From the IMG/VR virus record IMGVR_UViG_3300030419_007587, positions 1-33,308 of that record: a stretch of 33,308 nt of DNA. One strand, written 5' to 3'. Position numbers and translations under genes: made by a program. Source of the DNA: a virus. Below are positions 2-31,947 of this stretch, one piece after another. A model generated the notes under the pieces. The model was given only the letters and a program-made list of their open reading frames with translations. It had not been told where the DNA came from and did not search any database. How positions within the stretch are numbered: the first letter of the stretch is position 1; each line of letters begins with the position of its first letter.

Positions 2-3000
2 TTAGACACAGGTGGTAGCCGTCGAGCAAACATAAATCAACACGGGTTAAGTGGTTCTGGTGGATTGAGTGGTCATGATGGTTATTTTGCAGGTAATGTT
101 GGTATAGGTATATCATCTCCTTCTTCTTCATTACATATATGTGCTACAGACCCACGAGTTAGAGTTGATGCTACAACGGGTAATCACCCGGGTTATGAGC
201 TACTAGAATCTGGTTCTAGATGCTGGGTTATGTATAATGATCCTGACAACAGCGATGCACTTACATTTAAAAGTGATGTAGATAGGTTTGTTATAAAGGA
301 TAGCGGTAACGTTGGAATCGGATGTGCCGCGCCAACGTGTAAGTTGGAAGTGGGTGGTAATGCACTAGTCGTTGGTAATACAACCATAACCGGTAACTTA
401 TCTGTTACAGGAGATATTACGTGTTTAGATACTGCAATTTCTTTAACTTCAGCTCTATCAGTTGTTAATGCCGGTACAGGTCCTGCGCTGTATGTTGAGC
501 AAGACGGCTCGCAACCAATTGCTCATTTTATTGATAAAAACGGCGACGATATAGTATTTGATGATAATGGTAAAGTTGGTATAGGTACAAGTAGCCCGGG
601 TGATAAACTAACAGTACAAGGTAATATAAGTGCTAATGGTAACATAAAATTAATAAATCCTACCCCGTGGATTAGACTACAAACGTCAGATGCTTCAGAA
701 AAACGTTTAGATTTATGTGTAGATAGTAATTCTATAGGTATAATAGCTGCTAACCAATCAGCTCAGCAGCTAGCGTTTTGCACAACTAATTCCGAAAGAA
801 TGCGAATAGATGCTAGTGGCAACGTTGGTATCGGCTACACATCATTGGTCAAAGAATTAATGGTTAATGGGTCTGTACTTACAAAAAATAACGCCGGGTT
901 TGTACAGTATGACGCAGCTGGAAATATAGCGACTCTTGTAAATCAAAACGGAAGTGATTTGTTAACTCTCGGAGACAACAACCACACAGAAAAAATTAAT
1001 ATAGCGTCAGTGGGTAATGTCGGTATTGATACAACATCACCAGGAGAAAAACTCACCGTGCAAGGTACTGTGAGTGCTAGTGGAATAAAAGTACCGGATG
1101 AATCAAAAATTAATATAGGTACAGGAAACGATATACAGCTCCAACACTCTGGTGGTAACAGTTATATTGAAAATTCAACTGGTCATTTATACATAAATAA
1201 TAACCAAGCTGATAAAGACATATTCTTCAGAAATGATAACGGTTCTGGGACTGCAACTACTTATTTCTTCTTAGATGGAAGCGCAGTTGATACCCGTGTT
1301 TGTAAAAACTTCCGATTTATTGATAATGTAAAAGCTGGATTCGGAACCAGCATGAATTTCAATATATGCCATGATGGAACAAATTCGTATTTAGAAGAAA
1401 CGGCAGGTGATTTGATAATAAAAAATACTGCGGATGATATAAAAATCTTAGCTGAAGACGATATTGTTATCAGAGATATTGACGATTCTACCAATATGGC
1501 TCACTTCATTAATGGTGGTGCTGTAGAGCTATACCATAATGGAAGCAAGAAATTCGAGACAACATCTGCTGGAGCAACTGTACAAGGTACTGTGAGTGCT
1601 AGTGGAGTAAAGGTACCAGATAACTCGTGTATTAATATAGGTACAGGAAACGATATACAACTATATCACACTGGAAGTGATAGTTATATTCTAAACAACA
1701 CCGGTAACCTTTACATAAGACAAGAGGTTGCTGATGGTGATCTCGTACTCGCTCATGGTACAGAAAAATCCTTTCTTTCTGTTAAGAACGGTCGGGCTGA
1801 ATTGCGTTATGATGACTCTGCTAAGTTATGTACAACAAATACTGGAATTAATGTTGCAGGAGGTGCAACTATTAATGGTGATATAAGTGGTTCCGGTGAA
1901 TTGTGTGGTCATGATGGTTATTTTGCAGGTAATGTTGGTATTAATACATCAGATCCAAACGAAACTCTCACTGTAGTAGGTGATATAAGTGCTACGGAAT
2001 GCTTCCGATTCCCTGGTGGCTTAAATCTTAAGCAAGGGACAAATAGTTCTCTTCAAGTTACAAATGGTAGTGGGTATGTTCAAATAGGTCCACAGAACAC
2101 TAGTTGGTCACATTTTAGTACAGATCGAAATAGATTTTATTTTAATAAATGTATTGTAGTTGATACCGGTGTTTTTAAATCGTATGATGAAGATCTAGTC
2201 ATAGGAGGTAACGAAACCGGTACAGCTTGCGATGTTATAATAAAGACAGATGATACTGATAGAATTCATGTTGAAGCAGCAGGTAATGTTGGTATAGGTA
2301 CAACAACACCAAACGAAAAGCTTACTGTAGCTGGTAACATAAGCGCAAGTGGAGATGTTTGTATTGGTGATGATTTAGTTGTTAATGGAGAGTCTATTAC
2401 AATATGCGGTGCTACTGCTCAGTTATGTCTATATGATACAACTGATTCAGACGACATGTGGATTAATTTTATAGGCGCAGGTACTTCATACGCTTGTTTA
2501 GGTTATTTGCAACGTGGCTCGTATTTTGATATCTGCACCAATAATAGAGATATAAGTTTATTACCTGGAACCGCAAATGTTGGTATTGGTACAACAAACC
2601 CTGAAGCTAAACTTACTGTACAGGGTGCTGTAAGTGCCGACGGTAGTCTTAGTGCTCACTACGGTTTAGTAGTAACTAAACCCGGGACAACAGGAAAAGC
2701 TTGTTTAGAATTAAAAGGTAAGGGTAATAGTACAGGAGATCAAGTTGGAATAGTTCAATTTAAGAGTTACTCTCAGGGTGTACCTTTAGCATCCATGCAG
2801 GGTATACGACACGATGACGATGTATTAGGTTGTTTAGCTTTCAGTACTAGTAATAGCGAGAGAGTAAGAATTGATAATAATGGTAATGTTGGTATAGGAA
2901 CAGATAGTCCAGATGCTCTTCTACATGTTTATTCAACAGGTAATGGAGAAATAGAAGTAGAGAGAAATGGCGGCGCATTAATTAATTTACAAGCACAAGC

Positions 3001-3958
3001 TAGTAAGGGAGTTATTGGCACAGATAGTAATCATCAATTAGATTTTAAAACTAATGCTAGTGCTCGCATGACCATAGAGGCAGGTGGTGATGTTGGTATA
3101 GGAACTACATCACCAGGAGAGAAACTCACTGTGCAAGGTACTGTAAGCGCTAGTGGATTAAAAGTACCAGACAACTCGTGTATTAATATAGGTACAGGAA
3201 ACGATTTACAGCTCCAGCATACTGGTAGTGAAAGTCAAATATTTAATAATACCGGGCAATTAGACATAAGAACACCCAGCCGGTTATTAGTAACCTCCAG
3301 TGGTGGTGATGAAATGATTAGAGCTGAAGTTGACGGTTCTGTATGTCTATATTACGATGACTCTGCTAAGTTATGTACAACATCTGTTGGAGCAACTGTA
3401 CAAGGTACTGTAAGCTCTAGTGGATTAAAAATGCCGGATCATTCATGTGTTAGTATAGGTACAGGAAACGATTTAAAGCTGTACCACGACGCCACAAACT
3501 CATACATGGATAATGATACTGGGCATTTATATATAAGAAATTCCGGCAGTAATGATAATTCAAATATTTATATCCAAGCAGTAGATGGTGAGCAGTCAAT
3601 AATTGCAAATGATGATGGTAGTGTTGTTCTCTATAATAATAACTCTGTCAAGTTCTGTACTTGTTCATCAGGTTCTAGAACTACTGGAACGCATTGTGCT
3701 ACAACCTGCTTACGTTCAGCTACAGTTTGTAGTACGGGTTGTTTACGTGGAGCATGTGTCTGCGGTACTAGTAGCGTTTGTAGCCCTACCGTCTATGGTT
3801 CAACAACTGTTTGTAGCCCTACTGTATGTGGTACTACCTGTGGTAGCTTTTGTACGTTATACCTCACAAATCTACCTACATCATCATGCTGCTTATGCGC
3901 CGGCGCTGTATGGAACAACTGCGGTTATCTTATGATCGTTTCCGGATGCGGGTGCTAA
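2..3958 (+). CDS. Long repeat-rich, cysteine-rich tail-fibre-like virion protein (5' partial)
   Basis: The reading frame is open from base 2, so the true start lies left of the window. The TTG at 65 is only an internal codon and the 21 codons before it continue the same repeat style. The visible part is about 1318 residues. It is built from recurring units of the NVGIGTTSPGEKLTV type followed by QGTVSASGxKxPD and INIGTGNDxQL, a pattern common in long phage fibre and adhesin-like structural proteins. The C-terminus follows the widespread phage-protein ending LPTSxxxxAGxxWNxxGxL, but with several positions replaced by Cys. The last roughly 100 residues hold about 19 cysteines. No endosialidase-type chaperone domain is seen. 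A role in receptor binding or the distal tail is inferred from the repeat type. It runs convergently to the next gene. Confidence 0.75.
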   Translation, partial: LDTGGSRRANINQHGLSGSGGLSGHDGYFAGNVGIGISSPSSSLHICATDPRVRVDATTGNHPGYELLESGSRCWVMYNDPDNSDALTFKSDVDRFVIKDSGNVGIGCAAPTCKLEVGGNALVVGNTTITGNLSVTGDITCLDTAISLTSALSVVNAGTGPALYVEQDGSQPIAHFIDKNGDDIVFDDNGKVGIGTSSPGDKLTVQGNISANGNIKLINPTPWIRLQTSDASEKRLDLCVDSNSIGIIAANQSAQQLAFCTTNSERMRIDASGNVGIGYTSLVKELMVNGSVLTKNNAGFVQYDAAGNIATLVNQNGSDLLTLGDNNHTEKINIASVGNVGIDTTSPGEKLTVQGTVSASGIKVPDESKINIGTGNDIQLQHSGGNSYIENSTGHLYINNNQADKDIFFRNDNGSGTATTYFFLDGSAVDTRVCKNFRFIDNVKAGFGTSMNFNICHDGTNSYLEETAGDLIIKNTADDIKILAEDDIVIRDIDDSTNMAHFINGGAVELYHNGSKKFETTSAGATVQGTVSASGVKVPDNSCINIGTGNDIQLYHTGSDSYILNNTGNLYIRQEVADGDLVLAHGTEKSFLSVKNGRAELRYDDSAKLCTTNTGINVAGGATINGDISGSGELCGHDGYFAGNVGINTSDPNETLTVVGDISATECFRFPGGLNLKQGTNSSLQVTNGSGYVQIGPQNTSWSHFSTDRNRFYFNKCIVVDTGVFKSYDEDLVIGGNETGTACDVIIKTDDTDRIHVEAAGNVGIGTTTPNEKLTVAGNISASGDVCIGDDLVVNGESITICGATAQLCLYDTTDSDDMWINFIGAGTSYACLGYLQRGSYFDICTNNRDISLLPGTANVGIGTTNPEAKLTVQGAVSADGSLSAHYGLVVTKPGTTGKACLELKGKGNSTGDQVGIVQFKSYSQGVPLASMQGIRHDDDVLGCLAFSTSNSERVRIDNNGNVGIGTDSPDALLHVYSTGNGEIEVERNGGALINLQAQASKGVIGTDSNHQLDFKTNASARMTIEAGGDVGIGTTSPGEKLTVQGTVSASGLKVPDNSCINIGTGNDLQLQHTGSESQIFNNTGQLDIRTPSRLLVTSSGGDEMIRAEVDGSVCLYYDDSAKLCTTSVGATVQGTVSSSGLKMPDHSCVSIGTGNDLKLYHDATNSYMDNDTGHLYIRNSGSNDNSNIYIQAVDGEQSIIANDDGSVVLYNNNSVKFCTCSSGSRTTGTHCATTCLRSATVCSTGCLRGACVCGTSSVCSPTVYGSTTVCSPTVCGTTCGSFCTLYLTNLPTSSCCLCAGAVWNNCGYLMIVSGCGC
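69..105 (+). repeat. 37-bp exact direct repeat, copy 1 (copy 2 at 1905-1941)
   Basis: The 37 bases encoding GHDGYFAGNVG with its flanks are identical at 69-105 and 1905-1941. The upstream codons (SGSGGLSG versus SGSGELCG) are also similar. This shows that the sequence left of base 65 belongs to the same repeated architecture and supports the 5'-partial call. Confidence 0.85.
1051..3490 (+). repeat. Four diverged copies of a ~100-bp coding module in the fibre gene
   Basis: Copies lie near 1051-1140, 1575-1680, 3124-3236 and 3391-3490. Each encodes TVQGTVSxSGxKxPD then a short S-x-x-x-IGTGND-x-x-L segment. A 27-base stretch (1811-1837) recurs at 3356-3382. The DNA similarity is high enough that duplication or recombination within the gene is likely. 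Confidence 0.8.
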
Positions 3959-4886: not shown

Positions 4887-6413
4887 TCAGAAGTACACTG
4901 CCGTTGAGCCAGGAGTAAACGCAGTACCAAGTCCCTGAACAAGTATGACATGGTAGTAGAGATTCGCTCCGAAGATGTTGTCAACAACACCATAACGAGT
5001 AAGCAAGCCAACACGTGGTGCGAAGTCGTTAGGACCGATGGTTCTCTGAACCATGACTGGAATGTAAGGACAGTAAATAATACCAGTATCGTAGAACTCA
5101 GGACCCTTGTATCCGAGAAGAGCATACTCAATAGCAGCGCTATAAGCGCCTCCAGTGCTAGCACTGGTGTAAGTCTGCTCATCGTACACATTGGAATTCT
5201 GAACCTCTGTTCTGGTATCACGGTAAACGTTAAACCTTCCTCCGAGCGAACCAACCTTAGCAATACCAACAGGTTGTGTATTGACGTCACCTTGAACAGG
5301 TACCCACTGGAATTCAGGGAGCATTTCAAGAATGGCGGCAACACGAGGAGTACAAACAATAAAGTTTGCAGCACCACGCCTGTTACGCACAGCAATGCGG
5401 TTGGCTTCAATGATGATACGCTGGTAGAAGTCCCTGTTGCGCTCAACCATCCAACGGCCGTCTGCAGAAGCAGGTGACCAGAAGGAGAATCCTCTGTCAG
5501 CTCCAGCATTAAGAGCAGACTGGATCATTCTCATGAGCATCTCACGGTCGATCTCAGCCTGAATCTCATACGACATAGCGTTTGTGATCTCAGCGTCAAT
5601 ATCGATACCGTTCATGTTCTTAAGGTCTTGCTCAAGTTCAACGGACCAACGTGCACCAAGGCGGCGTGTGCCGGCCTCGACAGCGGTCTTCTCGAACTTA
5701 ACCTCAACCTGAGGAATGTTACCAGTAATCTCAAATGCGGAAAGGATTTGAGCAACACCTGTATCTTCCGCTGCAAACGACCAGTTAACATCACCAGACA
5801 AGCTGTATGAAGAAGCACCGGTAAAGCGGGTATCCAGGAGTTGATATCCGAGTTCATCAGCATTGAGACCTTCTGCTCCAGCATACTGTCCAGCCGCGTC
5901 GGACTGGGTATTTGTTGCAGGAGGAGTACCAGGTCCGGTAGTAGTGCCGCCGATAGGACCAGAGGTTCCATCAGCACCGTTACCAAGATAATCGGACTGG
6001 TAAGCGTAGCGAAGAGCAAATGCAAGTCCAACAGGACCTGACATTGGCTGAACACCAACGATCTCGTTTGTGATAAGCTCGGGGAACGTACGACGAATCA
6101 TCGGAATAAGGACTTTAGGAAGACGAGCATCTCCTGCTGCGTAGTTGTCGCCAGAATTAATTCCAGCAGAACCACCAGGCTGATACAAGCCACCGGTCGT
6201 GGTACTACCTTGACCGAATGAACCTTGTGCAGTAGATGAACCCTCCTCAATACACCACTTCTCCTGGTTTTCCAGCAGAATAGCAGTATTTAAGCGGGTG
6301 TGATCGTCTTCGATAGCCTTAACACTATCGGATGAATAATCTAGAACAGGCGCCCACTTCTCAAGAAGAGTGTCTGCTCTATCGCGATCAATAAATGATT
6401 GTGGTTTATTCAT
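4887..6413 (-). CDS. 23: Major capsid protein (T4 gp23-like)
   Basis: A 508-residue T4-type major capsid protein, the building block of the head hexamers. Family hallmarks include the N-terminal LNTAILLENQEKW segment, RRTFPELITNEIVGVQPMSGPVGLAFALRY near residues 90-135, and TRRLGARWSVELEQDL in the middle. In T4, gp21 removes the N-terminal propeptide after an (I/L)-x-E site. A candidate here is IEE at residues 55-57, just before a Ser/Gly/Thr-rich linker. A Gly/Thr/Pro-rich insert lies near residues 145-170. The ATG is preceded by GAAAGGAA 7 nt upstream, the clearest ribosome-binding site in the head module. The gene is noticeably less AT-rich than its neighbours, fitting high expression. Confidence 0.95.
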   Translation of the reverse strand: MNKPQSFIDRDRADTLLEKWAPVLDYSSDSVKAIEDDHTRLNTAILLENQEKWCIEEGSSTAQGSFGQGSTTTGGLYQPGGSAGINSGDNYAAGDARLPKVLIPMIRRTFPELITNEIVGVQPMSGPVGLAFALRYAYQSDYLGNGADGTSGPIGGTTTGPGTPPATNTQSDAAGQYAGAEGLNADELGYQLLDTRFTGASSYSLSGDVNWSFAAEDTGVAQILSAFEITGNIPQVEVKFEKTAVEAGTRRLGARWSVELEQDLKNMNGIDIDAEITNAMSYEIQAEIDREMLMRMIQSALNAGADRGFSFWSPASADGRWMVERNRDFYQRIIIEANRIAVRNRRGAANFIVCTPRVAAILEMLPEFQWVPVQGDVNTQPVGIAKVGSLGGRFNVYRDTRTEVQNSNVYDEQTYTSASTGGAYSAAIEYALLGYKGPEFYDTGIIYCPYIPVMVQRTIGPNDFAPRVGLLTRYGVVDNIFGANLYYHVILVQGLGTAFTPGSTAVYF

Positions 6414-12107: not shown

Positions 12108-13305
12108 TCATTTGTAGGATAGAGCTAGTGGCGGGATAAGAAGAACCCCAGCCGGCTTCATTTGCTGATACAAAAACGAACTTACCAGCTGCACTTAGAG
12201 TAGACGTTGGTAAAAATATGTTTGTTATGTTATCGTTTACTACTTCGTACAGAGATGTACCAAGTTTATACCCACTAATTGTAGCAGATTTTGCAGAAGT
12301 AATTTCTTGGTAGTTAGAGTAGAACGGGTTGTCTGGAAGCGGTCCCCCCATATCTGTTGCGCTTAAAAAGAAGTCATTATCATAATCAAAACGTTTACCA
12401 TATAGTATAAAGTTATTTGGGTGACTAGAAAGTAATCGAGAAGTGGTTTGATATAACTGCGTAAATGTACCAGTTGTAGAGTAATACAGGTTGGTAATTT
12501 CAGGTATTGCAGAAATTGTTACTGTTTCAGAGTATGCGTCCGGAACGCCGTCATTATAACCTGATAGAGCTCTATATCCCTGTTGGTTATACGACGCGTT
12601 ACTTACAACTTCATTATTATCCAAAGGTGAGTATATTCTGTTTGCAAGATTAACTGCTATAAAATTATTATCTATTTTATAGATATTACCTTTAGTATCT
12701 TTCTGCTCAGGGAATAACCACCCTTTAATGGTAAAGGTTGTATCTACTGTAATTCTAAATTTATCACTATACGTAGTATCTGTCGGTGTATCATATACTA
12801 AATTACCATCCCATAGTACTTCGGTTCTAATTTCCTGATCATAACCGGCACCAAAAGCTGAGGGTACTTTCCAGGTTAATATAATATACGGATTATTATA
12901 TGGTACAAAATTAGATACAATTTGATCTACATCTTGCATATACCGCGCTAATATTGACATATTAACTTCAATATTAATCGGGACGGGCATTAAAAAGTTA
13001 GAAGATGATTTGGGATCAGACTCTCTTTGTGTGGGAATAAATGTATTTGGTAGCTTATTAAATACTCTATCATTGTCACGCGTAATACCTGTTAAGTTTA
13101 TAGCGACAACAGGGAGAGTTATGTTTTGAGCCTTATTAATAATATCGTACATTACACGCTGTTTGGGCGCGAATACATACCTAACTTCGATATTATTTTT
13201 TCTATCCCTGCTTTTATTATATCTACTTATAACCGTATCATCAAACGCAGCAACAAATTGCGTCAGTAAGTTTTTTATTTCAAAATGAAATGCTCGGTTC
13301 TTCAT
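12103..13305 (-). CDS. 15: Tail sheath stabiliser/completion protein (T4 gp15-like)
   Basis: A 400-residue protein whose first 225 residues follow the layout of T4 gp15, which caps the tail tube and sheath and joins the tail to the head. Shared landmarks are an early IEVRYVFAPKQRVMYDIINK strand (T4: VPITYASKEHFMMKLNK) and a LPVVAINLTGI strand. NIEVNMSILARYMQDVDQIV (about residues 112-131) corresponds to the T4 ELSIFTRYEDDMFQIVEQIL segment. TTFTIKGWLFPE corresponds to TFEVNGWMYPP. It is about 130 residues longer than T4 gp15, with an unassigned C-terminal domain. The gene is next to the portal gene. The call rests on aligning these patterns by eye. Confidence 0.7.
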   Translation of the reverse strand: MKNRAFHFEIKNLLTQFVAAFDDTVISRYNKSRDRKNNIEVRYVFAPKQRVMYDIINKAQNITLPVVAINLTGITRDNDRVFNKLPNTFIPTQRESDPKSSSNFLMPVPINIEVNMSILARYMQDVDQIVSNFVPYNNPYIILTWKVPSAFGAGYDQEIRTEVLWDGNLVYDTPTDTTYSDKFRITVDTTFTIKGWLFPEQKDTKGNIYKIDNNFIAVNLANRIYSPLDNNEVVSNASYNQQGYRALSGYNDGVPDAYSETVTISAIPEITNLYYSTTGTFTQLYQTTSRLLSSHPNNFILYGKRFDYDNDFFLSATDMGGPLPDNPFYSNYQEITSAKSATISGYKLGTSLYEVVNDNITNIFLPTSTLSAAGKFVFVSANEAGWGSSYPATSSILQMT

Positions 13306-16466: not shown

Positions 16467-16883
16467 TTACCTTCTAGGACTTTTTTGTAGTCTTCTATAA
16501 TCATATTCTAATATTTTTGTTGTAGAATATCCACTAACTCTTTCAAAGAAACGCAGTTCCTTTGCGTGTTCCTTACCCACGACTGTTTTACCCTCCCAAT
16601 CGGAACCAATTACCATTATGTCAGGTTCGATCTCTTTAATTAAGTTTTCTAATCCTTCTGTAGTATTAAAACTACGTACTTCATCAACAAAGCGTAGTGA
16701 CTCGAGCATTTTTACCCTATCATCTAGAATGTTATATGGTCTATCCTTCCCCTTATCACGGCGGACCTTTTCATCAGAATCAACACCTACATATAAATAA
16801 CCTAAACTCTTTGCATATTCAAATAGATCTAAATGACCTCGATGTAATATATCAAAGCAGCCATTTGTAAATATTTTTTTCAT
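16467..16883 (-). CDS. RfaE2/HldE-type sugar-phosphate nucleotidyltransferase
   Basis: A 138-residue single-domain cytidylyltransferase-fold enzyme. It begins FTNGCFDILHRGHLDLF, with the nucleotide-binding HxGH at residues 14-17, and has the conserved STT motif (120-122) near the end. The TNGCFDILH start is typical of the C-terminal half of HldE, which adenylates heptose-1-phosphate. Glycerol-3-phosphate cytidylyltransferases are the alternative. The matching kinase half of HldE is a separate gene at 21487-22260, so both halves of the bifunctional enzyme seem to be present but split. The start overlaps the DUF366 gene by 4 nt. Confidence 0.8.
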   Translation of the reverse strand: MKKIFTNGCFDILHRGHLDLFEYAKSLGYLYVGVDSDEKVRRDKGKDRPYNILDDRVKMLESLRFVDEVRSFNTTEGLENLIKEIEPDIMVIGSDWEGKTVVGKEHAKELRFFERVSGYSTTKILEYDYRRLQKSPRR

Positions 16884-17461
16884 ACAATAATTTTAGTAGT
16901 AGCGACAAATTGATCTCTTACTTCAGAATTAAAATAATCAATAACCGATTTACTAAATGCAGTAACCTGTTTATCTGTTAACTTAGATGAATATGCAAAA
17001 GGAGGAGCTTTATCTCCAGCTACAATGTTAATACCAGTGTGACCGAGTGCCACATTTTCTTTAGAGTATGTAATAGATACGCTTACCTTACCTGATTCTC
17101 TTACTTGTTTATCCGTACCTAAAAATTCATCTTGTACTAATAGATCGTCTCCGTCTACCATAATACCTTTACTAATGTAACCTGATAATATATTAGCAAC
17201 CCCAGTATTAAAAAGCCTTTGAAAAGAAACAGCCCCTAGTGGACATAATCCTGGAATTTCCCAGCAAAAATTAATCGCGTCTTGACTATGAATAAAATCA
17301 TTTTCGAGCGAATCTTCAAGATCGATTAAAGCATCCTCCACATACATTGGAGCTCTAAATGCTACAATATTACCTACGCTCGCTACGTCTTTTCGAAAAA
17401 ACTTATAAGCAAACCTTTCATGAATTAGTTTGCCGTCGTATACACCTTGGTCAATAATCAT
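16880..17461 (-). CDS. DUF366 family protein
   Basis: A 193-residue protein matching the layout of DUF366, an uncharacterised family best known from archaea and some bacteria. Landmarks are NIVAFRAPMYVEDALIDLED (about residues 31-50), the central GIMVDGDDLLV, KVSVSITYSKENVALGHTGI and the following NIVAGDKAPPFAY. The order and spacing match the family pattern of a KLSVSIAT-like strand followed by an HxGIN segment. No activity is known. It is the first gene of a short unit that continues into the nucleotidyltransferase, gp62-like and co-chaperonin genes. Confidence 0.65.
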   Translation of the reverse strand: MIIDQGVYDGKLIHERFAYKFFRKDVASVGNIVAFRAPMYVEDALIDLEDSLENDFIHSQDAINFCWEIPGLCPLGAVSFQRLFNTGVANILSGYISKGIMVDGDDLLVQDEFLGTDKQVRESGKVSVSITYSKENVALGHTGINIVAGDKAPPFAYSSKLTDKQVTAFSKSVIDYFNSEVRDQFVATTKIIV

Positions 17462-17468
17462 ATACTCT

Positions 17469-17496
17469 ATTATAAGTAACTATGATTAGTTTTCAA
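17469..17496 (-). promoter_or_regulatory. Possible sigma70-type promoter before the DUF366 gene
   Basis: On the minus strand TTGAAA (17491-17496) and TATAAT (17469-17474) are separated by 16 bp. They lie in the 42-bp gap between the glycan island and the DUF366 gene. The start codon at 17461 is only 7 nt past the -10 box, so the leader would be almost absent. This could be an early or host-polymerase promoter for the replication and chaperone genes. An inverted repeat (17476-17481 with 17502-17507) overlaps it. Confidence 0.4.
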
Positions 17497-17503
17497 CTGT
17501 AAG

Positions 17504-18418
17504 TTACCTATTATAGTTGTCGTGTAGTGTTTGTTGGATACCCCATAAAATTTTTAGATATATATCTGGGCATCTCGTACCCGGAACAGCTCCTTTAACA
17601 TTTTCGTTAATTAATCTAGCGCTTTCATAAGCTTTCCATAGACCCGGTGGCGTGTAGTTTTCTATATTTTCGGTAACTATATGATAAATCGCTGTTAGTA
17701 TTTCTAATACTAGTTGTGGGTTTTCCTTACAGTCAGGTACTGATCTATTGATATGTGCCATTCTATTGTGATTTTCTTTATCTCTTTTTGTGGGCTCCTT
17801 AGAAGCGTTGTGACAAGACCACTGCGTTATGTTAATAGCAGGTTTAGTTGTGGCGACTCTGTTTAGTGTGGTGTATATTTTATCAATGAACCAATCAGCA
17901 CCCCAGCTGGGAATTAAAGATGGAGCAAGAAAAAAGCCTAACGTATCGATACTAGCTCTTGTTAATATTGGAAAGCAACAAAACCCTTCACCGCCTACAT
18001 TGCCTTCTCCGTACGTTTTAATTAGCAGGTAGTGCTTTTTATGAATACCCTCTGTTTTAATTAGGCCTTCTTTCGTTTTTATTAATAAGAGATCATAATT
18101 AGGCGTATCGATTACAATATCATCTGCTCCTGGCATTACAAAAAAGCCATTGCTTTTTTTAGCACCATAATTGTAATAATCGTCTGTAATATTAAGAGAC
18201 CGTTTTCTTATAAGAAGTTGAAAATGTTTTAATTGTTTAAATCCCTTTTCATTAGATATAAAATTAATGGTTTTTTTATCATCTTCATCTACTACAAAGA
18301 TTAATTCAACATTATTTACATCACCGGTATTATGTACAAACGATCTAAGAAAACCATCTCTTAACGCCTCTATGTTATCTCTAGTAGGGATAATAATTGA
18401 TAGTATTGGTTGCTTCAT
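17504..18418 (-). CDS. GT-A (family 2-like) glycosyltransferase, duplicate B
   Basis: A 304-residue putative glycosyltransferase. It opens ILSIIIPTRDNIEALRDG, the nucleotide-sugar-binding strand of family 2 enzymes, and has MPGADDIVI near residues 94-102 in the DxD metal-site position. It is a tandem copy of the gene just upstream (18420-19376). The first 55 residues are nearly identical, as is the block from ITDDYYNYGAKKSNGFF through the DD motif. The C-terminal half, expected to bind the acceptor, has diverged strongly. The two genes are separated by 1 nt. Donor and acceptor are unknown. It is the last gene of the glycan island. Confidence 0.75.
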   Translation of the reverse strand: MKQPILSIIIPTRDNIEALRDGFLRSFVHNTGDVNNVELIFVVDEDDKKTINFISNEKGFKQLKHFQLLIRKRSLNITDDYYNYGAKKSNGFFVMPGADDIVIDTPNYDLLLIKTKEGLIKTEGIHKKHYLLIKTYGEGNVGGEGFCCFPILTRASIDTLGFFLAPSLIPSWGADWFIDKIYTTLNRVATTKPAINITQWSCHNASKEPTKRDKENHNRMAHINRSVPDCKENPQLVLEILTAIYHIVTENIENYTPPGLWKAYESARLINENVKGAVPGTRCPDIYLKILWGIQQTLHDNYNR

Positions 18419-18419
18419 A

Positions 18420-19376
18420 TTACTTTATATGGTTAAAATTTCTGTATAGTGCTTGCTGGATACCTATTAATATCTCTTCGTAAATATGGGGGCATATACT
18501 TCCTTTGGCAATAACACCTATAGGGGATCCTACCGCGGTCGCAGCAGCTTCGTTTACTCTATTAGCTTCATATTTCATCCACTTGCTTTTTGGTGTATAC
18601 TTTTCTAAATTATCTAAAACAATATAATGTATGGCCCTTAATATTTCAAGCCATATTTCTGGATTTTCTTTTGGAGTGATTGCCGATAAATAAACTTCTT
18701 TCATCCTTCTATATTTTTCTTTTTCTTTTTCGGATGGATTCTTTTTGTTTGAGTGCTGTGATACTTGTGCTATATTGATAGGTGGGTTAGTTGCTGCGAC
18801 CTTGTTTAAAGTAGTATATATTGTATCAATAAACCAATCAGCTCCCCAACCGGGTATACCCGCGGGTGCTAAAAAATAACCTAGACGATCGATACTATCT
18901 CTCGTTAATATAGGGAATCCGGAATGTCCGTCGCGACCATCCGGATCTTTGCCTATATTACCTTCTCCGTACGTTTTAATTAGCAGGTAATGCTTTTTAT
19001 GAATACCCTCAATATCAAGTAAATCTTGTCTTACTTTGATTAAAACGAGATCATAATTTGGTGTATTGATTACAATATCATCTGCTCCTGGCATTACAAA
19101 AAAGCCATTGCTTTTTTTAGCACCATAATTGTAATAATCGTCTGTAATATTTTTGGATCTCTCTCTAATAAGAAGTTGGAAAAACGCGATATGTTTAAGT
19201 GCATCGTTTTTTTGTAAGAAGTTAATAGTTTTTTTATCATCTTCATCTACTACAAAGATTAATTCAACATTATTTACATTACTAGTATTATGTACAAACG
19301 ATCTAAGAAAACCATCTCTTAACGCCTCTATGTTATCTCTAGTAGGTATAATAATTGATAGTATTGGTTGCTTCAT
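18420..19376 (-). CDS. GT-A (family 2-like) glycosyltransferase, duplicate A
   Basis: A 318-residue paralogue of the following gene, with the same SIIIPTRDNIEALRDG start and MPGADDIVI metal-binding motif. It shares the GWGADWFID-type segment (residues about 180-190) with its copy (SWGADWFID). It differs by an insertion rich in Gly/Asp (GKDPDGRDGHSG) and an unrelated-looking C-terminal third. A short upstream GGG, 5 nt before the ATG, may serve as a ribosome-binding site. Presumably it transfers a related sugar to a different position of the same glycan. Confidence 0.75.
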   Translation of the reverse strand: MKQPILSIIIPTRDNIEALRDGFLRSFVHNTSNVNNVELIFVVDEDDKKTINFLQKNDALKHIAFFQLLIRERSKNITDDYYNYGAKKSNGFFVMPGADDIVINTPNYDLVLIKVRQDLLDIEGIHKKHYLLIKTYGEGNIGKDPDGRDGHSGFPILTRDSIDRLGYFLAPAGIPGWGADWFIDTIYTTLNKVAATNPPINIAQVSQHSNKKNPSEKEKEKYRRMKEVYLSAITPKENPEIWLEILRAIHYIVLDNLEKYTPKSKWMKYEANRVNEAAATAVGSPIGVIAKGSICPHIYEEILIGIQQALYRNFNHIK

Positions 19377-19377
19377 A

Positions 19378-19686
19378 TTACCCTATATGTTGCTTTACGT
19401 AATCGTCGATATTTATACACCTATCATCAATCCATAAATCATACGGTGGCTTATGCATCATAAGCTTATTATACTTTACACCCCACTCTTTAAGCTGATT
19501 AACTGTCTCGTATGTCCAGTCTCGCCCGGAGTTTCCTCCTCTAGCTGTGTAATATGTTATATGCACACCGTCATCATAAAGTTTATTAAAGTGTTTAATT
19601 ATTTTTTCATGTGGTGTTGATTCTGAGTAATCAAACGTCTTTGTCTCACAAATTGTGTTATCAATATCAATTAACAGTTTTTTCAT
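19378..19686 (-). CDS. Small HAD-type phosphatase (capsule-biosynthesis-like)
   Basis: A 102-residue HAD-superfamily protein. Motif I is DIDNT (nucleophile D7, D9), motif II is in YYTARG (T47), motif III Lys is in HKPPYD (K79) and motif IV is WIDDR (D87, D88). It has no cap domain. The compact form with the IDDR ending fits the small phosphatases of polysaccharide clusters (EcbF/BcbF type) better than full-length GmhB. A sugar-phosphate substrate is likely given the heptose-kinase and nucleotidyltransferase homologues nearby. AGGAGA 9 nt before the ATG is one of the clearest Shine-Dalgarno sites in the island. The start overlaps the cupin gene stop by 4 nt. Confidence 0.75.
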   Translation of the reverse strand: MKKLLIDIDNTICETKTFDYSESTPHEKIIKHFNKLYDDGVHITYYTARGGNSGRDWTYETVNQLKEWGVKYNKLMMHKPPYDLWIDDRCINIDDYVKQHIG

Positions 19687-20051
19687 TTTTGACTATCTCC
19701 TGGTTCTACTCTGTAACTATCGTGCTCAAAATGCTGCGTACTAACTTCGATAATTTCAGAATCTTCTAATGCTTCAAGCTTATGTGGAATATTTGGCTTA
19801 ATATCAACAACTGTCCCTGTTTTAATTACTTCAGATATGCGGCTAGCATTAGTTAAATCGTAGTATGATAGCCTTAAGCTACCTTTTGATACATACCAAG
19901 TTTCTTCCTTCTCAATATGATAATGCATTGAAAAAGAGCTACCTTTTTTAAAGGATAAAATTTTTAGACAGTATTTTTCTTTATTAACTACCCATCTTTC
20001 GTGTCCCCACCCCTTGGGGTAATCTTCATATTCTATAATCTCAGGCTTCAT
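19683..20051 (-). CDS. Cupin-fold sugar-phosphate isomerase-like protein
   Basis: A 122-residue single cupin domain. The metal-binding motif 1 is visible as HYHIEKEETWYV (residues 43-54) and motif 2 as DIKPNIPHKLEAL (about 83-95). The opening KGWGHERWVVN resembles the C-terminal cupin of type II mannose-6-phosphate isomerase / mannose-1-phosphate guanylyltransferase proteins. It may act on a sugar phosphate or be a binding protein. Activity cannot be fixed from the sequence. It overlaps the apt gene by 11 nt and the HAD gene by 4 nt. Confidence 0.7.
   Translation of the reverse strand: MKPEIIEYEDYPKGWGHERWVVNKEKYCLKILSFKKGSSFSMHYHIEKEETWYVSKGSLRLSYYDLTNASRISEVIKTGTVVDIKPNIPHKLEALEDSEIIEVSTQHFEHDSYRVEPGDSQK
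19696..19701 (-). promoter_or_regulatory. Strong ribosome-binding site of the HAD gene
   Basis: AGGAGA on the minus strand lies 9 nt before the ATG at 19686, inside the end of the cupin gene. It supports this start for the small phosphatase. Confidence 0.6.
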
Positions 20052-20563: not shown

Positions 20564-21490
20564 TTATATATTATTAACTTTTTTAAGAAAATCTAATACC
20601 ATTAGTGTAGGATCTTTAAAGTATTCTACTACTACTTCCTCGAAATATTTTCGAGCTAATCTACACATATCATGTAGCCTGGGTAAGGGCGTATCGTGTA
20701 TTTTTTTAAATTCTTTTGCCATTTCTTCATTGCTTAAATTAGGGTCTATTCTATAAAAAAATATGTCCTGAAGATCGTCTTCACACATTATTTTAGGGTA
20801 ACCAATAATAATTGGAACTCTTCCGAAAAAACACGACTCATAAAACCGGATAGTATCTTCACCGGCTCCACGCGGACATAAAGAAAATATATTATTTTCT
20901 AGTTTTTTAGCGAATCCTTGAACAATATTATTGTCGGATTTTAGATCAACTTGCGCAAACCACCCGGGGTTAAATTCAATGTCATTGGGTATACCTGCAG
21001 CATTTAATACTTGTGCGACTTTTATTCTGGTACCATACGGATCAACCTGGCCTTTAAATCCAAAGCTTTTAGTGTCAGGCAGTGTTAGTTCATATTTAAT
21101 TTTTTCGGTATTTTTAGCAAGGTGTATTAAAAGAGTGCTTAGGCACGGTCTAGTAAAAAAGTTTTCTTTATTATAAAATGTTCTATTAGCATTACCCATA
21201 CACGTACATTTTAATAACCAATCCGGAGCTTTATCATTTAACCAGTCTCCTTCAAGCTCTACTAAGTGTCTTTTTTCATTACCTTCAAAAAAAGAGAAAT
21301 CACTAGATTTAAACTCTTTATACGTACCGCAAGATATTTGTCCCATATAAAAGTAATCTGCTTTTTCTGGCTCGGTAATTTTAAAGTGGTCCTTAATACC
21401 TTGTTCAGATAGGGGCGTAGTATTATAATATTTTTCAGATTTGTCCTGACTATGCTTTAAGGCTGTAGGATAGATGTATAGATTTTTCAT
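20564..21490 (-). CDS. Exostosin-like (GT47-type) glycosyltransferase
   Basis: A 308-residue protein. The segment FSLCPRGAGEDTIRFYESCF, followed by FGRVPIII (roughly residues 202-229), is the signature of exostosin-family GT-B glycosyltransferases. In that family the R-x-x-E region binds the nucleotide sugar. The N-terminal part has the EKADYFYMGQ pattern also common in this family. Donor and acceptor are unknown. It is the only GT-B type enzyme seen in the island. It overlaps the heptose-kinase-like gene by 4 nt. Confidence 0.75.
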   Translation of the reverse strand: MKNLYIYPTALKHSQDKSEKYYNTTPLSEQGIKDHFKITEPEKADYFYMGQISCGTYKEFKSSDFSFFEGNEKRHLVELEGDWLNDKAPDWLLKCTCMGNANRTFYNKENFFTRPCLSTLLIHLAKNTEKIKYELTLPDTKSFGFKGQVDPYGTRIKVAQVLNAAGIPNDIEFNPGWFAQVDLKSDNNIVQGFAKKLENNIFSLCPRGAGEDTIRFYESCFFGRVPIIIGYPKIMCEDDLQDIFFYRIDPNLSNEEMAKEFKKIHDTPLPRLHDMCRLARKYFEEVVVEYFKDPTLMVLDFLKKVNNI

Positions 21491-22260
21491 TTTATAAAGT
21501 TTTTTTGGATTACATTGACGCCTTTTTTCTGCACGACATTAGTCGCGCACTTATTTCCAAACTCAATACTTTTTTGTATATCATTTGTTTTTAAAAAGCA
21601 ACATACTAGCCCAGAAAGAAATGTATCACCAGCTCCAGATAGATCCTTAACTTCTACATCTTCAACATCATACTGTATATTTTTATATACTGCTCCTCCC
21701 GATCCTAGAGTTGTAATAATATTCTCTTTTAACTTATTCGTGAGAACATGTTCTGATTCTTTATATTCCTTTCTATTAATTTTAATAAACTTTATACTAC
21801 TAGCCCACGTACCGAGAATTTTTTTTGTATCTAAAAAAGTAATTGGATGATTATTACCAATATGCTGTATTTCTTCTTCTGTAATAAAGCCTTTATTGTA
21901 ATCTGAAATTACAACCGCTGAATAATCATCAAAATTTAAATTAGAACAATAATCCTTAAATGTACTCTTTAATTGTGTCTTTGTGTCAATTCGGATAAAC
22001 ATGTGATTTGTTTTGTAGTCAACATATCTTGTCTTAATAATACTCTTATAATTTTTATTTGTTAATAGATGTGTTTCGCAATTTAAAGCTTCAAGATTCT
22101 TAAGAACATTACCCGCCATGCCTTTATTTGTCTTAGTTTTTATAATATCTAATAACGGCACGGGGGCTTCAGGACAAAGCCGTTTACACTTACAGTAAAC
22201 AAATTTATCTGTACAAGAGTCTCCTACTAGTAATATTGGCTTGTTAATCGCTTTCTGCAT
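21487..22260 (-). CDS. RfaE1/HldE-type heptose-phosphate kinase (PfkB family)
   Basis: A 257-residue ribokinase-fold kinase. ILLVGDSCTDKFVY (residues 9-22), then CPEAPVP (29-35) and KGMAGNVLKNLEAL, correspond to the HldE N-terminal domain pattern (D-x-x-x-D, SPEAPVP, GGAANV). VISDYNKGF is conserved, and the anion-hole motif GAGDTF (209-214) carries the catalytic Asp (D212). In HldE this domain phosphorylates D-glycero-D-manno-heptose-7-phosphate at C1. It is shorter than the usual domain (about 315 residues) and not fused to the nucleotidyltransferase, whose homologue is at 16467-16883. The start overlaps the upstream gene by 17 nt. Confidence 0.85.
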   Translation of the reverse strand: MQKAINKPILLVGDSCTDKFVYCKCKRLCPEAPVPLLDIIKTKTNKGMAGNVLKNLEALNCETHLLTNKNYKSIIKTRYVDYKTNHMFIRIDTKTQLKSTFKDYCSNLNFDDYSAVVISDYNKGFITEEEIQHIGNNHPITFLDTKKILGTWASSIKFIKINRKEYKESEHVLTNKLKENIITTLGSGGAVYKNIQYDVEDVEVKDLSGAGDTFLSGLVCCFLKTNDIQKSIEFGNKCATNVVQKKGVNVIQKNFIK

Positions 22261-23952: not shown

Positions 23953-25192
23953 TATTAAGCAGTGTTAAAAGATTGGTAATTTTTTCTTTTTTAAGAGAAG
24001 GGTAATTACCAATATACCAACTATAATTATGCACGTGCTCGACATTTGCAAAGTGATGCTGCAACATGTCGTCTGTGAGAACCGAGCCAATTGGCTCGCC
24101 TATTTTATGATTATACGGACTACGTGTAAGGAATCCCATTTTATGGGAGTATTCCTTAATGTAGGGTTGTCTAAGTTGATTACCGCCTCCGGATAATCCG
24201 CGTCTAAATTCTATATTGTTATCATTTAACATTTTTTCAATTTTATTGCGTTGATTAATGTCTGCTTCCTTCATTATAACAATAAAGGCATAATTGCTTT
24301 GACCTTCTACATCTAGTGTTGTAATATATTTGGTTGAATTAAGCTTAGATAAAAAATAATTAAAATTTTCTTTACGTTTATTATTGTTTTTGTCTAAAGA
24401 TTTAATCTGAGATAATCCTAAAACAGCATTAAGTTCGGTGCTTCTAAAATTATACGCGGGTGCTAAAAATATAAAATCTGGATTAAGGTCAGGGTGATCC
24501 AGTTTTACTTGCTGTTTAAATTCTTCATTTTTGCATTCTCTAACCATGCCATGAGAGCGGCTAAATCTTAGAATATCATAAAACTCGTCATTGTTAGTAC
24601 ATACCATTCCGCCTTCAATTGTAGACATATGATGTGCAAAATAAAAACTAAAGTTACTAACGTCTCCGATCGACCCGGCTTTTTGATCTTTAAAAGTTGC
24701 ACCATGTGACTCGCATACATCCTCTATTAAAAAAAGATCATTTTCTTTACAAACTTGTAAAAGTTCATCAGTAAGACCATTAAGACCAAGAACATGTGTT
24801 AAAAATATAGCTTTTGTTTTAGGTGTAATTGCTTGTTTTAACTTTTCGATATCGAAGCTTAAATTTGAAAGGTTAATATCTACAAAAACAGGATTGTGAC
24901 CTGTATTAATAACACTAGCAACATCTGAAACCCAGGTCAAGGGCGGTACAATAACTTCACAAGCTCCATATTTGTAATATAAGAGCTGCATAGTCATATA
25001 GTTTGCACTCGACCCTGAGTTTACAAATACACTATGTTTTACACCAAGCCATTCAGACCATTTCTTTTCAAACTCTTCAACCTTTGGGCCGTTGGTAAGT
25101 CTTGGGATTGGATCTTGTTGTAAGAAGTTTACTAACTCGTCAACATCATTACGAGTTATATTATCTGACATTAATGGTATATTAAAATTCAT
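23945..25192 (-). CDS. DegT/DnrJ-fold PLP enzyme with His in place of Lys (ColD/RfbH-type sugar 3-dehydratase)
   Basis: A 415-residue member of the DegT/DnrJ/EryC1/StrS fold. The PLP-phosphate region is VNSGSSANYM (residues 58-67) and the cofactor-ring Asp lies in LIEDVCESHGA. At the position of the internal aldimine lysine (usual pattern SFxxxK) the sequence reads FSFYFAHHMSTIEGG. H187 therefore aligns with the Lys. This Lys-to-His change defines the 3-dehydratases ColD and E1/RfbH, which remove the C3 hydroxyl of 4-keto-6-deoxy nucleotide sugars. The RfbH iron-sulfur cysteines are not seen, so ColD is the better model. It lies directly upstream of, and overlaps by 4 nt, the ThDP enzyme pair. 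Confidence 0.82.
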   Translation of the reverse strand: MNFNIPLMSDNITRNDVDELVNFLQQDPIPRLTNGPKVEEFEKKWSEWLGVKHSVFVNSGSSANYMTMQLLYYKYGACEVIVPPLTWVSDVASVINTGHNPVFVDINLSNLSFDIEKLKQAITPKTKAIFLTHVLGLNGLTDELLQVCKENDLFLIEDVCESHGATFKDQKAGSIGDVSNFSFYFAHHMSTIEGGMVCTNNDEFYDILRFSRSHGMVRECKNEEFKQQVKLDHPDLNPDFIFLAPAYNFRSTELNAVLGLSQIKSLDKNNNKRKENFNYFLSKLNSTKYITTLDVEGQSNYAFIVIMKEADINQRNKIEKMLNDNNIEFRRGLSGGGNQLRQPYIKEYSHKMGFLTRSPYNHKIGEPIGSVLTDDMLQHHFANVEHVHNYSWYIGNYPSLKKEKITNLLTLLNNV

Positions 25193-25719
25193 TTTTCGCT
25201 ATAATAATCTCCCCACTCTACTAAAATTGTTGATTTACCGTCTTCACGCCATAGTGCTTTTGTATAAGCCGGGAAAATATCTTCTGGTTCATCTAGTCGA
25301 ATTATTTCTACATTTTTACACATGCTTGTAAATGCTTCTGTATAATCACCAGTGTGTTGATGATGTGGGTGTAAAGGTCTAACAGAACCAATACCGGTCC
25401 GAATAATAGCCTTTGTTTTAAAGTTTGATATCATCGGAAATTTATCTAAGTGGTTAACGATTTGATTAGTACCTAGTAATAAAAAGTTCCATCGCGGAAA
25501 AATACTCACCGGAATTTTACCGGCAAGAGCAAGCCCGTTAGTCATTCCCATTTGCAAATCTTCACACACTGGCAATTCTAACTTTTTTTCATTCGCTACA
25601 TCTTTAAGCGTATTCGACATTGCTGTACCAGCACAATTTACCGCTTGTCCCATAAACAGAGTATCGCGATGCGCCGCTAACATATCCATAGATCGTTTTA
25701 ATTCATCAAAGTATTTCAT
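25189..25719 (-). CDS. ThDP enzyme, E1 beta-like (transketolase pyrimidine-domain) subunit
   Basis: A 176-residue protein. I choose the ATG at 25719, 2 nt after the stop of the alpha-like gene. The longer frame would overlap that gene and adds an unrelated 14-residue start. CEDLQMGMTNGLALAG (residues 52-67), followed by FPRWNFLLLGTNQIVNHLDK, matches the pyrimidine-binding domain of E1 beta subunits. E53 is in the place of the catalytic Glu that activates the cofactor. The C-terminal transketolase domain of normal E1 beta (about 330 residues) is missing. With the alpha-like partner it would form a minimal two-subunit ThDP enzyme. Confidence 0.75.
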   Translation of the reverse strand: MKYFDELKRSMDMLAAHRDTLFMGQAVNCAGTAMSNTLKDVANEKKLELPVCEDLQMGMTNGLALAGKIPVSIFPRWNFLLLGTNQIVNHLDKFPMISNFKTKAIIRTGIGSVRPLHPHHQHTGDYTEAFTSMCKNVEIIRLDEPEDIFPAYTKALWREDGKSTILVEWGDYYSEK

Positions 25720-25721
25720 AA

Positions 25722-26321
25722 TTAAAATTGTACACGTTGTCCTGCGCCAGCATGTGGCCATTTAGTTTCATATTTATAATAATATACGTATTCATCGTTA
25801 ATTCCAGCATATGGGTGGTCATTAGTATTCCAGGTTTCTTTTGTATCTGTACATACCGATTTACCATTATCTTCAATTATAAATTTAATAGGCAATTTAT
25901 GAGCTTTTGAATATCTTAAACACTCGTCAAAAGAACCTGTAAGAGCTGTCATGTCCCCTACAAAGCAATAAACTTTGTTATTGCCCCCATCTCGTTTGAT
26001 ATCTAATGCTAAACCAACACTAATGGGTAAAATACCGGTTACAATTGCAGAAGAAAAAATTCTATATTCTGGAAAACTCAAAGAAATAGATCTACCAGCC
26101 ATGATTTCAGCTTTAACTTGTTCTGGTGGAACACCCTTAAGTAAACATTGATAGTGACTCCTCCAGGTACATAGTACCCAGTCGTCTTTGTTAATATCTT
26201 TAAATATTTTAATACTCTCTTCTTCGTTTCCGGAGTAGAGATGAATTGGTGCTTTAATTTTTGAATTATTAAATTCGTCAGCTATATCTTCTTCAAAACT
26301 TATTAGATCTTCTTTAGTCAT
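25722..26321 (-). CDS. ThDP enzyme, E1 alpha-like (pyrophosphate-binding) subunit
   Basis: A 199-residue protein with the ThDP/Mg-binding signature. GDMTALTGSFDECLRYSKAH (from residue 122) replaces the usual GDG start and runs on to FIIEDNGKSV, whose N152 is in the metal-ligand position. LPISVGLALDIKRDG before it is the usual preceding helix. It is much shorter than pyruvate-dehydrogenase E1 alpha (about 360). No lipoyl E2 is nearby, so central metabolism is unlikely. Two-subunit ThDP enzymes of this kind act in branched-sugar pathways (avilamycin AviB1/AviB2 are the precedent I know). The ThDP fold is seen, while the sugar role is inferred. Confidence 0.75.
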   Translation of the reverse strand: MTKEDLISFEEDIADEFNNSKIKAPIHLYSGNEEESIKIFKDINKDDWVLCTWRSHYQCLLKGVPPEQVKAEIMAGRSISLSFPEYRIFSSAIVTGILPISVGLALDIKRDGGNNKVYCFVGDMTALTGSFDECLRYSKAHKLPIKFIIEDNGKSVCTDTKETWNTNDHPYAGINDEYVYYYKYETKWPHAGAGQRVQF

Positions 26322-30754: not shown

Positions 30755-31175
30755 TTTTAAAAATATCCCAGTTCTGTAAATCTGATTTAAGTTCCGCTGC
30801 AAGGCAATCCGTCTTTAGATCTACCCGCTCACCGAGCTCGTTTGAAATAACATTTTTAGCTGTATTTCGTACACCGTTAATTGAATGGGTTAACTTAAGT
30901 AATTGTGCTTCATTATTATCTGCACTACTTCTTACTTTACTTTCATTTTCCCAAATATATCTATTTGAAAGCATAACAATACTAATAGCTCTAATAAGCT
31001 CTGCAGTTAAGTCGACATCTTTCTCTTTGATAATTTCATCAATATCGTGCTTTATGTCACTTATCTCCTTATCATATGCTTCTTTATTTTCAGGAATAAA
31101 AATAGACTTTAATTGACATATTGTCATTCTATCAATTAATTCCGCGAATGTTGGTAGGTATTTTCTATTTGCCAT
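30744..31175 (-). CDS. Unassigned helical protein, DUF4254-like pattern
   Basis: A 143-residue, mostly helical, charged protein. ELIRAISIVMLSNRYIWENE, followed by SKVR and later LLKLTHSINGVRNTAKNVIS, resembles the DUF4254 pattern (a helix with W-x-x-E-x-K-x-R, then K-x-x-I-x-x-x-N-x-x-R). DUF4254 is an uncharacterised family found in polysaccharide clusters. The match is by eye and tentative. No membrane or signal segment is seen. It overlaps the upstream glycosyltransferase gene by 11 nt and the DUF962 gene by 11 nt, so it belongs to the same operon. Confidence 0.55.
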   Translation of the reverse strand: MANRKYLPTFAELIDRMTICQLKSIFIPENKEAYDKEISDIKHDIDEIIKEKDVDLTAELIRAISIVMLSNRYIWENESKVRSSADNNEAQLLKLTHSINGVRNTAKNVISNELGERVDLKTDCLAAELKSDLQNWDIFKNEN

Positions 31176-31947
31176 TTTTAATATCTTTTAAAGTTTTTAT
31201 AACAGTTTTAATTTCTGTATCTGGTACAGAAGTTGGACCTATACCGTGTTTATCAGTAAATTTACTCCATGCGTCTTGAATATTAGATTGCCAATCTTTT
31301 CTTGGTCTAATAGCCGAATTATTTTCAGAACATGCTTGCTCTACAACATAATCTAAACTGTTGCTAATATCCGGCCACCACCAATACGGTGTACAATATT
31401 TCTTTTTTGATAATTGATAGGAGTGGTCAACATGCTCAAAAGCGTTAGTATATTTTTCATCGTACAAACCAACGTCCTTTAAACATTCTTTTGTATAAAA
31501 ACAAACAGCACCAACACAATGCTGATTTAGAGCGATTTTTATATCACCATAATCAAAAACCTTACGTGGTACAGGCTTACCACCACTTATACCTGCTTTA
31601 TTTGCAGGTCCATGGTAAGCGAACATGAAATGGTGTATACCTGTTTTTTTATACGCTTTAATGTATTGTTCAAAAAGGTTACCCTTAAACAGCATATCAT
31701 CTTCTACGAGAACAATATAGTCACATCCCTTCTCCAATAAATGTTTAATAGCTTTATTTTTAGCCTTTCCTACGCCCTCTCCCCCGTTTGTTTTTATTAC
31801 CGGTGCTCGTGCATCTTCTAGAGGGTCTTTACCGTCGTTTACAACGACAATATAATTATACCACTTGTGATTTATAGATTCGCGGCACTTTTTAAAAAAT
31901 TCAGGCCTATCACATGTTATAATACCTACACCAATTGATTCGTTCAT
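31165..31947 (-). CDS. GT-A (family 2-like) glycosyltransferase
   Basis: A 260-residue protein. The start IGVGIITCDRPEFFKKCRES is the usual first strand. GVGKAKNKAIKHLLEKGCDY precedes the metal-binding motif IVLVEDDMLF (about residues 80-89). GLYDEKYTNAFEHVDHSYQL carries the late D/E-H acceptor-side motif often seen in this family. Donor and acceptor are unknown. It overlaps the FkbM-like gene by 4 nt. Confidence 0.8.
   Translation of the reverse strand: MNESIGVGIITCDRPEFFKKCRESINHKWYNYIVVVNDGKDPLEDARAPVIKTNGGEGVGKAKNKAIKHLLEKGCDYIVLVEDDMLFKGNLFEQYIKAYKKTGIHHFMFAYHGPANKAGISGGKPVPRKVFDYGDIKIALNQHCVGAVCFYTKECLKDVGLYDEKYTNAFEHVDHSYQLSKKKYCTPYWWWPDISNSLDYVVEQACSENNSAIRPRKDWQSNIQDAWSKFTDKHGIGPTSVPDTEIKTVIKTLKDIKNGK

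Follow-up and report, generated by a model that had tools for sequence, protein, structure and literature searches.

A cysteine-rich phage tail fibre whose cysteines are possibly anchor points for a sugar coat

The window, i.e. the whole stretch of DNA that was analysed (33,308 nt, IMG/VR record IMGVR_UViG_3300030419_007587), opens with a tail-fibre gene that is rich in cysteine and whose 5' end lies beyond the left edge. The encoded protein matched the PHROG tail-fibre families phrog_9942 and phrog_8745 (E about 1e-47). The window further encodes gp23 capsid, gp20 portal and gp15-like sheath stabiliser homologues (E 2e-90, 2e-97 and 3e-22), which identifies a T4-like phage. The following features were considered:

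2..3958 (+), Cys-rich tail-fibre gene, 1318 codons in view, 45 Cys
320..352 (+), GCAAPTCKLEV, an example of Cys in the GIGTTSPxxKLxV repeat
3656..3955 (+), Cys-saturated tip, 19 Cys in 100 residues, with partly regular 11-residue units (VCGTSSVCSPT, VYGSTTVCSPT, VCGTTCGSFCT)
3872..3904 (+), LPTSSCCLCAG ending
4887..6413 (-), major capsid protein gp23
16467..16883 (-), HldE/RfaE domain II-like nucleotidyltransferase (heptose 1-phosphate adenylyltransferase type)
19378..19686 (-), small HAD-type sugar phosphatase of the same gene set
19683..20051 (-), cupin sugar-metabolism gene of the same gene set
20564..21490 (-), possible GT47-like glycosyltransferase whose start overlaps the HldE-I-like gene, a candidate fibre transferase
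21487..22260 (-), HldE/RfaE domain I-like kinase (heptose 7-phosphate kinase type)
31165..31947 (-), GT2 glycosyltransferase, another candidate fibre transferase

The initial annotation had described a fibre tip at positions 3000-3958 with roughly 19 Cys in the last 100 residues, and this observation was confirmed. Exactly 19 of the last 100 residues are Cys, and Cys makes up 3.4% of the fibre residues in view, whereas the other 37 ORFs of the window average 1.4%. The binomial probability of at least 19 Cys in 100 residues is 2e-16 at the rate of the other ORFs and 5e-13 at the rate of the fibre's own shaft. However, the enrichment is not confined to the tip, as GCAAPTCKLEV, which had been cited for this region, is real but lies at 320..352, so that the substitutions run along the whole fibre.

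To analyze how far these features are shared, related sequences were compared. The exact tip (TTGTHCATTCLRS..., LPTSSCCLCAG...SGCGC) is shared with two IMG/VR contigs, L002 and L003, in which LPTSSCCLCAG is identical and all nucleotide differences around it are synonymous and at third codon positions. Other contigs keep the start of the Cys module but end in a different domain of about 120 residues. A tblastn search of cultured phages with the tip alone gave no match, although the low-complexity filter may hide one. All contigs with Cys-rich fibres of this kind encode gp23 at 80-88% identity to that of the window, while the best cultured gp23 is about 35% identical, indicating an uncultured T4-like clade. 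The fibres of about 20 such phages contain 3-8% Cys over up to 2000 residues and are built on GIGTTSP-type, GYTTCTG-type and YadA-head-like repeats. Fibres with the same modules elsewhere have about 0.1-0.5% Cys, and fibres of other phages that share an upstream module have mostly 0-0.8%.

The view of the initial annotation that phage fibres are normally Cys-poor also held. Fibres with the module GYTTNTG have a median of 0.13% Cys (n=79, maximum 1.0%), whereas fibres with GYTTCTG have a median of 3.8% (n=21, minimum 1.45%), and the two distributions do not overlap. The GYTTCTG search also reached phages without this gp23, some of them, judging from accession prefixes, apparently from rumen and freshwater samples. 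In 318 YadA-like repeats of Cys-rich fibres, Cys reaches 10-18% at several variable positions and is never found at the core positions 0-4, 7 and 8. That the variable positions are solvent-exposed is inferred from the YadA head fold. Across 872 related pairs of Cys-rich fibres, which are not independent, Cys is the most conserved residue (0.877). Homologues with the same ending but without Cys, which had been named beforehand as evidence for drift, were not found.

Subsequently, we aimed to understand if the arrangement of the Cys points to a particular chemistry. CxxC spacing is not enriched, adjacent Cys are depleted, and Cys pairs 11 residues apart are in excess. Cys at the same position of successive repeats do not co-occur more than expected (17 observed, 15.1 expected), so that a disulfide or metal ladder has no sequence signature. 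The last 110 residues contain one His and cannot carry HxH motifs. Two AlphaFold2 models of the tip, both of the monomer, had pLDDT values below 50 over the Cys region and were not used further. An overlapping reading frame at 3603-3935 is open in the three contigs with this tip, but the synonymous-shuffle P is only 0.026 and the aligned differences are all at third positions of the fibre frame, and it was therefore rejected. Reassignment of the TGY codons was rejected as well, since Cys replaces many different residues and other genes have ordinary Cys levels.

Comparison of Cys-rich phages of different groups showed one shared gene beside the fibre in the phage contigs G012, G016, G018/G023 and G025. 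The encoded protein is GT9/heptosyltransferase-like and corresponds in 24 of 28 members to phrog_8954, a family of unknown function. Pfam support for GT9 (PF01075) is borderline, with 22.6 bits for G018 and 22.1 bits for HTVC112P at a gathering score of 22 and 9 of 28 members at E<0.01, and the match to WaaF (1psw) is weak. Among the loci then examined, a profile of this gene hit only loci with Cys-rich fibres or with no fibre in view. It then predicted Cys-rich neighbours in named phages: S-CAM3, Sf-FS3 and AG-345-O18 have proteins with 8-11.6% Cys directly upstream of the gene, and AG-345-L05 has a fibre with 2.65% Cys 15 kb away. In the Pelagibacter phages HTVC112P and HTVC111P the gene overlaps the end of the preceding fibre gene, and that fibre has 1.5-1.85% Cys. 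HTVC112P, HTVC111P, S-CAM3 and Sf-FS3 are cultured. A Bacteroidetes MAG contig shows the same pairing (66 Cys in 991 aa). Two T4-like relatives at 68-70% gp23 identity (L155 and L176) carry the GT9-like gene, which in L155 lies beside a fibre with 3.2% Cys.

To test this linkage out of sample, two new scans were performed, which gave 160 loci with the gene in 71 clusters at 80% identity. Within +-10 kb, 49 of 53 clusters with a fibre in view have one with at least 2% Cys, against 3 of 74 control loci (p=1e-26). In size-matched +-5 kb windows, with Cys left out of the fibre criterion, the figures are 42 of 52 distinct loci against 3 of 74 (p=3e-20), while loci around the wider gp23 group give 6 of 44. 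The controls were chosen by the GYTTNTG motif and are thus not a random sample of fibres, although the mean number of fibre ORFs is equal (2.9 and 2.9), and a few of the 53 clusters had been seen in earlier steps. Some loci with the GT9-like gene have Cys-poor fibres in view (L440 and L442). Conversely, none of 50 records with Cys-poor GYTTNTG fibres carries a credible GT9-like gene, the one 15-bit match, which runs across stops, being spurious. The Cys-rich fibres of 59 loci fall into 13 sequence families, at least 10 of them at 2% Cys or more and unrelated to each other, so that shared descent of one fibre does not explain the link.

HldE-type kinase and nucleotidyltransferase genes occur together in 10 of 53 loci with the GT9-like gene and in none of 122 control loci (p=3e-6). 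The window encodes homologues of both, for which the best NCBIfam matches were TIGR02198 and TIGR02199, with E-values of 1.9e-34 for the domain I-like kinase and 2.4e-33 for the domain II-like nucleotidyltransferase, both below the equivalog cut-offs; GmhA was not identified. The kinase is 41-42% and the nucleotidyltransferase 47-55% identical to genes in the clusters of S-CAM3, Sf-FS3 and AG-345-O18, and together with the small HAD phosphatase and the cupin the set shares 36-55% identity with these clusters. A carbamoyltransferase is present in 27 of 27 loci of one type, and sulfotransferase or APS-kinase genes lie beside others. This points to heptose-like, further decorated glycans, but the window's clade is mixed, as only the window and the related contig G030 have the heptose-type genes. 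No GT9-like gene was found in the window or in its closest relatives G009 (86 kb), G020 (99 kb) and G030 (66 kb), about 280 kb in total of incomplete genomes, and a profile comparison of three window proteins without assignment with the GT9-like profile showed no similarity. The window's own candidate transferases are the GT2 gene, with homologues in G030, G009, G020 and G005 (a further contig), and the possible GT47-like gene (E 7e-5 and 4.5e-4, below the gathering scores), with a homologue in G030.

Based on these data, we propose that the fibre belongs to a discrete class of Cys-rich phage fibres in which Cys occupy probably exposed positions of beta-repeat shafts and tips and are acceptors for S-linked sugars, added in the infected cell by a phage-encoded glycosyltransferase. 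In most phages of the class examined this would be the GT9/heptosyltransferase-like enzyme encoded beside the fibre, giving a densely glycosylated adhesin. The Cys enrichment, its conservation and placement, the linkage to the GT9-like gene and the homologues of heptose-type genes in the window were established by the analysis, whereas glycosylation itself, Cys as the acceptor, the heptose-like nature of the sugar and the presence of such an enzyme in the window's phage (GT9-like in the unseen part of the genome, or its own GT2 or GT47-like gene) are inferred, and linkage does not prove that Cys is the acceptor. The model is somewhat better supported for the class, where we consider it more likely than not, than for the phage of the window, where it is about as likely as not.

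The interpretation of the initial annotation was supported in part, in that the Cys appear functional rather than the outcome of drift, while the disulfide or metal chemistry it had proposed was not. Disulfides, which might form between chains or laterally after lysis in oxic water and lock the trimeric fibre, remain the strongest rival although we regard them as unlikely to be the main reason. The very high conservation of Cys, the origin of many members from aquatic samples and the suitability of Cys for beta-structures would fit, and disulfides cannot be excluded because the model of the tip was poor and only a monomer could be modelled. On the other hand, there is no coupling of Cys in successive repeats, adjacent Cys are depleted without an excess of CxxC, two members (G012 and G016) appear to be rumen phages and thus from a reducing habitat, and a thiol-disulfide role does not explain the linkage to a GT9-like gene. 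It is also possible, but unlikely, that the enzyme modifies Ser/Thr on the fibre or a host glycan and that the Cys serve another purpose selected in the same phages. Enzymes of the GT9 kind modify Ser in the BAHT family (PMC4358343) and phages use glycosyltransferases in many ways, but the linkage is to Cys content itself, across at least 10 unrelated fibre families in which Cys occupies positions taken by N or other residues in Cys-poor fibres.

Metal (Fe, Zn, Cu) thiolate sites at the tip, helping stability or imitating a metal source for uptake receptors, are very unlikely. The Cys density would allow them and T4 gp37 tips bind iron through HxH, but CxxC is not in excess, the tip lacks HxH, Cys run along shafts of a thousand residues and no metal genes were seen beside the fibres. 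No evidence was obtained for the suggested connection to host metal-uptake receptors. Neutral drift or composition bias is contradicted by the conservation of Cys, by the restriction of differences in the aligned ending to third codon positions and by the ordinary Cys content of other genes of the same phages; Cys is chemically close to Ser and Ala, but no evidence in favor was found.

The closest described system is the BAHT family (TibC/AAH bacterial autotransporter heptosyltransferases, PMC4358343), in which a GT9-related enzyme hyper-heptosylates a repetitive beta-structured adhesin on Ser. ADP-heptose genes are found in part of the phage loci, and the phage family works in a plausibly similar way. 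However, the phage proteins are shorter (about 290-390 aa), no Cys is invariant so that the four-Cys iron finger is absent, the N-terminal beta-barrel of about 97 residues before the catalytic domain is lacking as the GGxGK motif starts near residue 10 in the aligned members, the putative acceptor is Cys rather than Ser, and the substrate would be a virion fibre. The phage family was therefore not assigned to BAHT. S-linked sugars on Cys occur in glycocins such as sublancin of the SP-beta prophage, where the phage-borne SunS-type enzyme is a GT2 enzyme acting on a short bacteriocin and not a GT9-like enzyme acting on a large fibre. In mycobacteriophages, phage-encoded glycosyltransferases reportedly decorate virion proteins (Freeman et al. 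2023, cited in PMC12619734), but this is not known to involve Cys or Cys-rich fibres. YadA-head-like and GYTTNTG-type phage fibres share the repeat scaffolds and S74-type or collar-type endings but are Cys-poor, and the GYTTNTG fibres have N where this class has C. Literature searches for Cys-rich marine fibres and for heptose with cyanophage carbamoyltransferases found nothing relevant, and no report of Cys-rich fibres linked to a glycosyltransferase was found in a literature collection that covers few subscription journals.

In its furthest form, which we consider slightly less likely than not, this view would mean that phages of several unrelated groups have repeatedly converted tail fibres into Cys-saturated scaffolds that are coated with S-linked glycans, probably heptose-type and in places further carbamoylated or sulfated, by a dedicated GT9-like enzyme, which would be a protein S-glycosylation system dedicated to virions. 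If right, it gives a function to phrog_8954, which is found in hundreds of viral contigs, and explains a recurrent class of Cys-rich fibres. It would add a virion modification that could affect receptor recognition, ageing of virions in water and sensitivity to host defences. Even if the chemistry is wrong, the linkage between fibre Cys content and one glycosyltransferase family is a strong regularity that needs explaining.

A 110-aa hydrophobic open frame overlapping the Cys tip (window 3603-3935, + strand, second frame) was also open in L002 and L003, two related contigs. However, the shuffle P of 0.026 and the codon-position pattern speak against a gene. Two pairs of adjacent genes or ORFs were further observed in the window:

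17504-18418 and 18420-19376 (-), tandem GT2-like genes 65% identical to each other, a recent duplication
25189-26321 (-), two adjacent ORFs resembling the two parts of a thiamine-diphosphate E1/transketolase-type enzyme, next to a DegT aminotransferase and a radical SAM/B12-binding protein, within a sugar-biosynthesis island

Near GT9-like genes or Cys-rich fibres of other loci (L numbers), genes that look like sulfotransferases were found, with PF13469 confirmed for L155 only and the others recognized by N-terminal motif:

L155:11377-12381
L176:1073-1891
L567:9733-10548
L380:6476-7294 and 16690-17613
L367:13407-14033

In L356, an APS-kinase-like gene (12830-13276; PF01583, E 2e-14) lies between a 3777-aa, 156-Cys fibre gene and the GT9-like gene. 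In addition, a NodU-type carbamoyltransferase gene accompanies the GT9-like gene in L381, L382, L384 and 27 of 27 representative loci from one scan for the GT9-like gene. Two genome bins labelled Paceibacterota and Taylorbacteria (L565, L566) carry GT9-like genes in tandem pairs near a sulfotransferase-like gene, with no Cys-rich protein in view. In L430, L458 and L530, further Cys-rich proteins (6-12.5% Cys), of sequence types other than those studied here, lie beside GT9-like genes.
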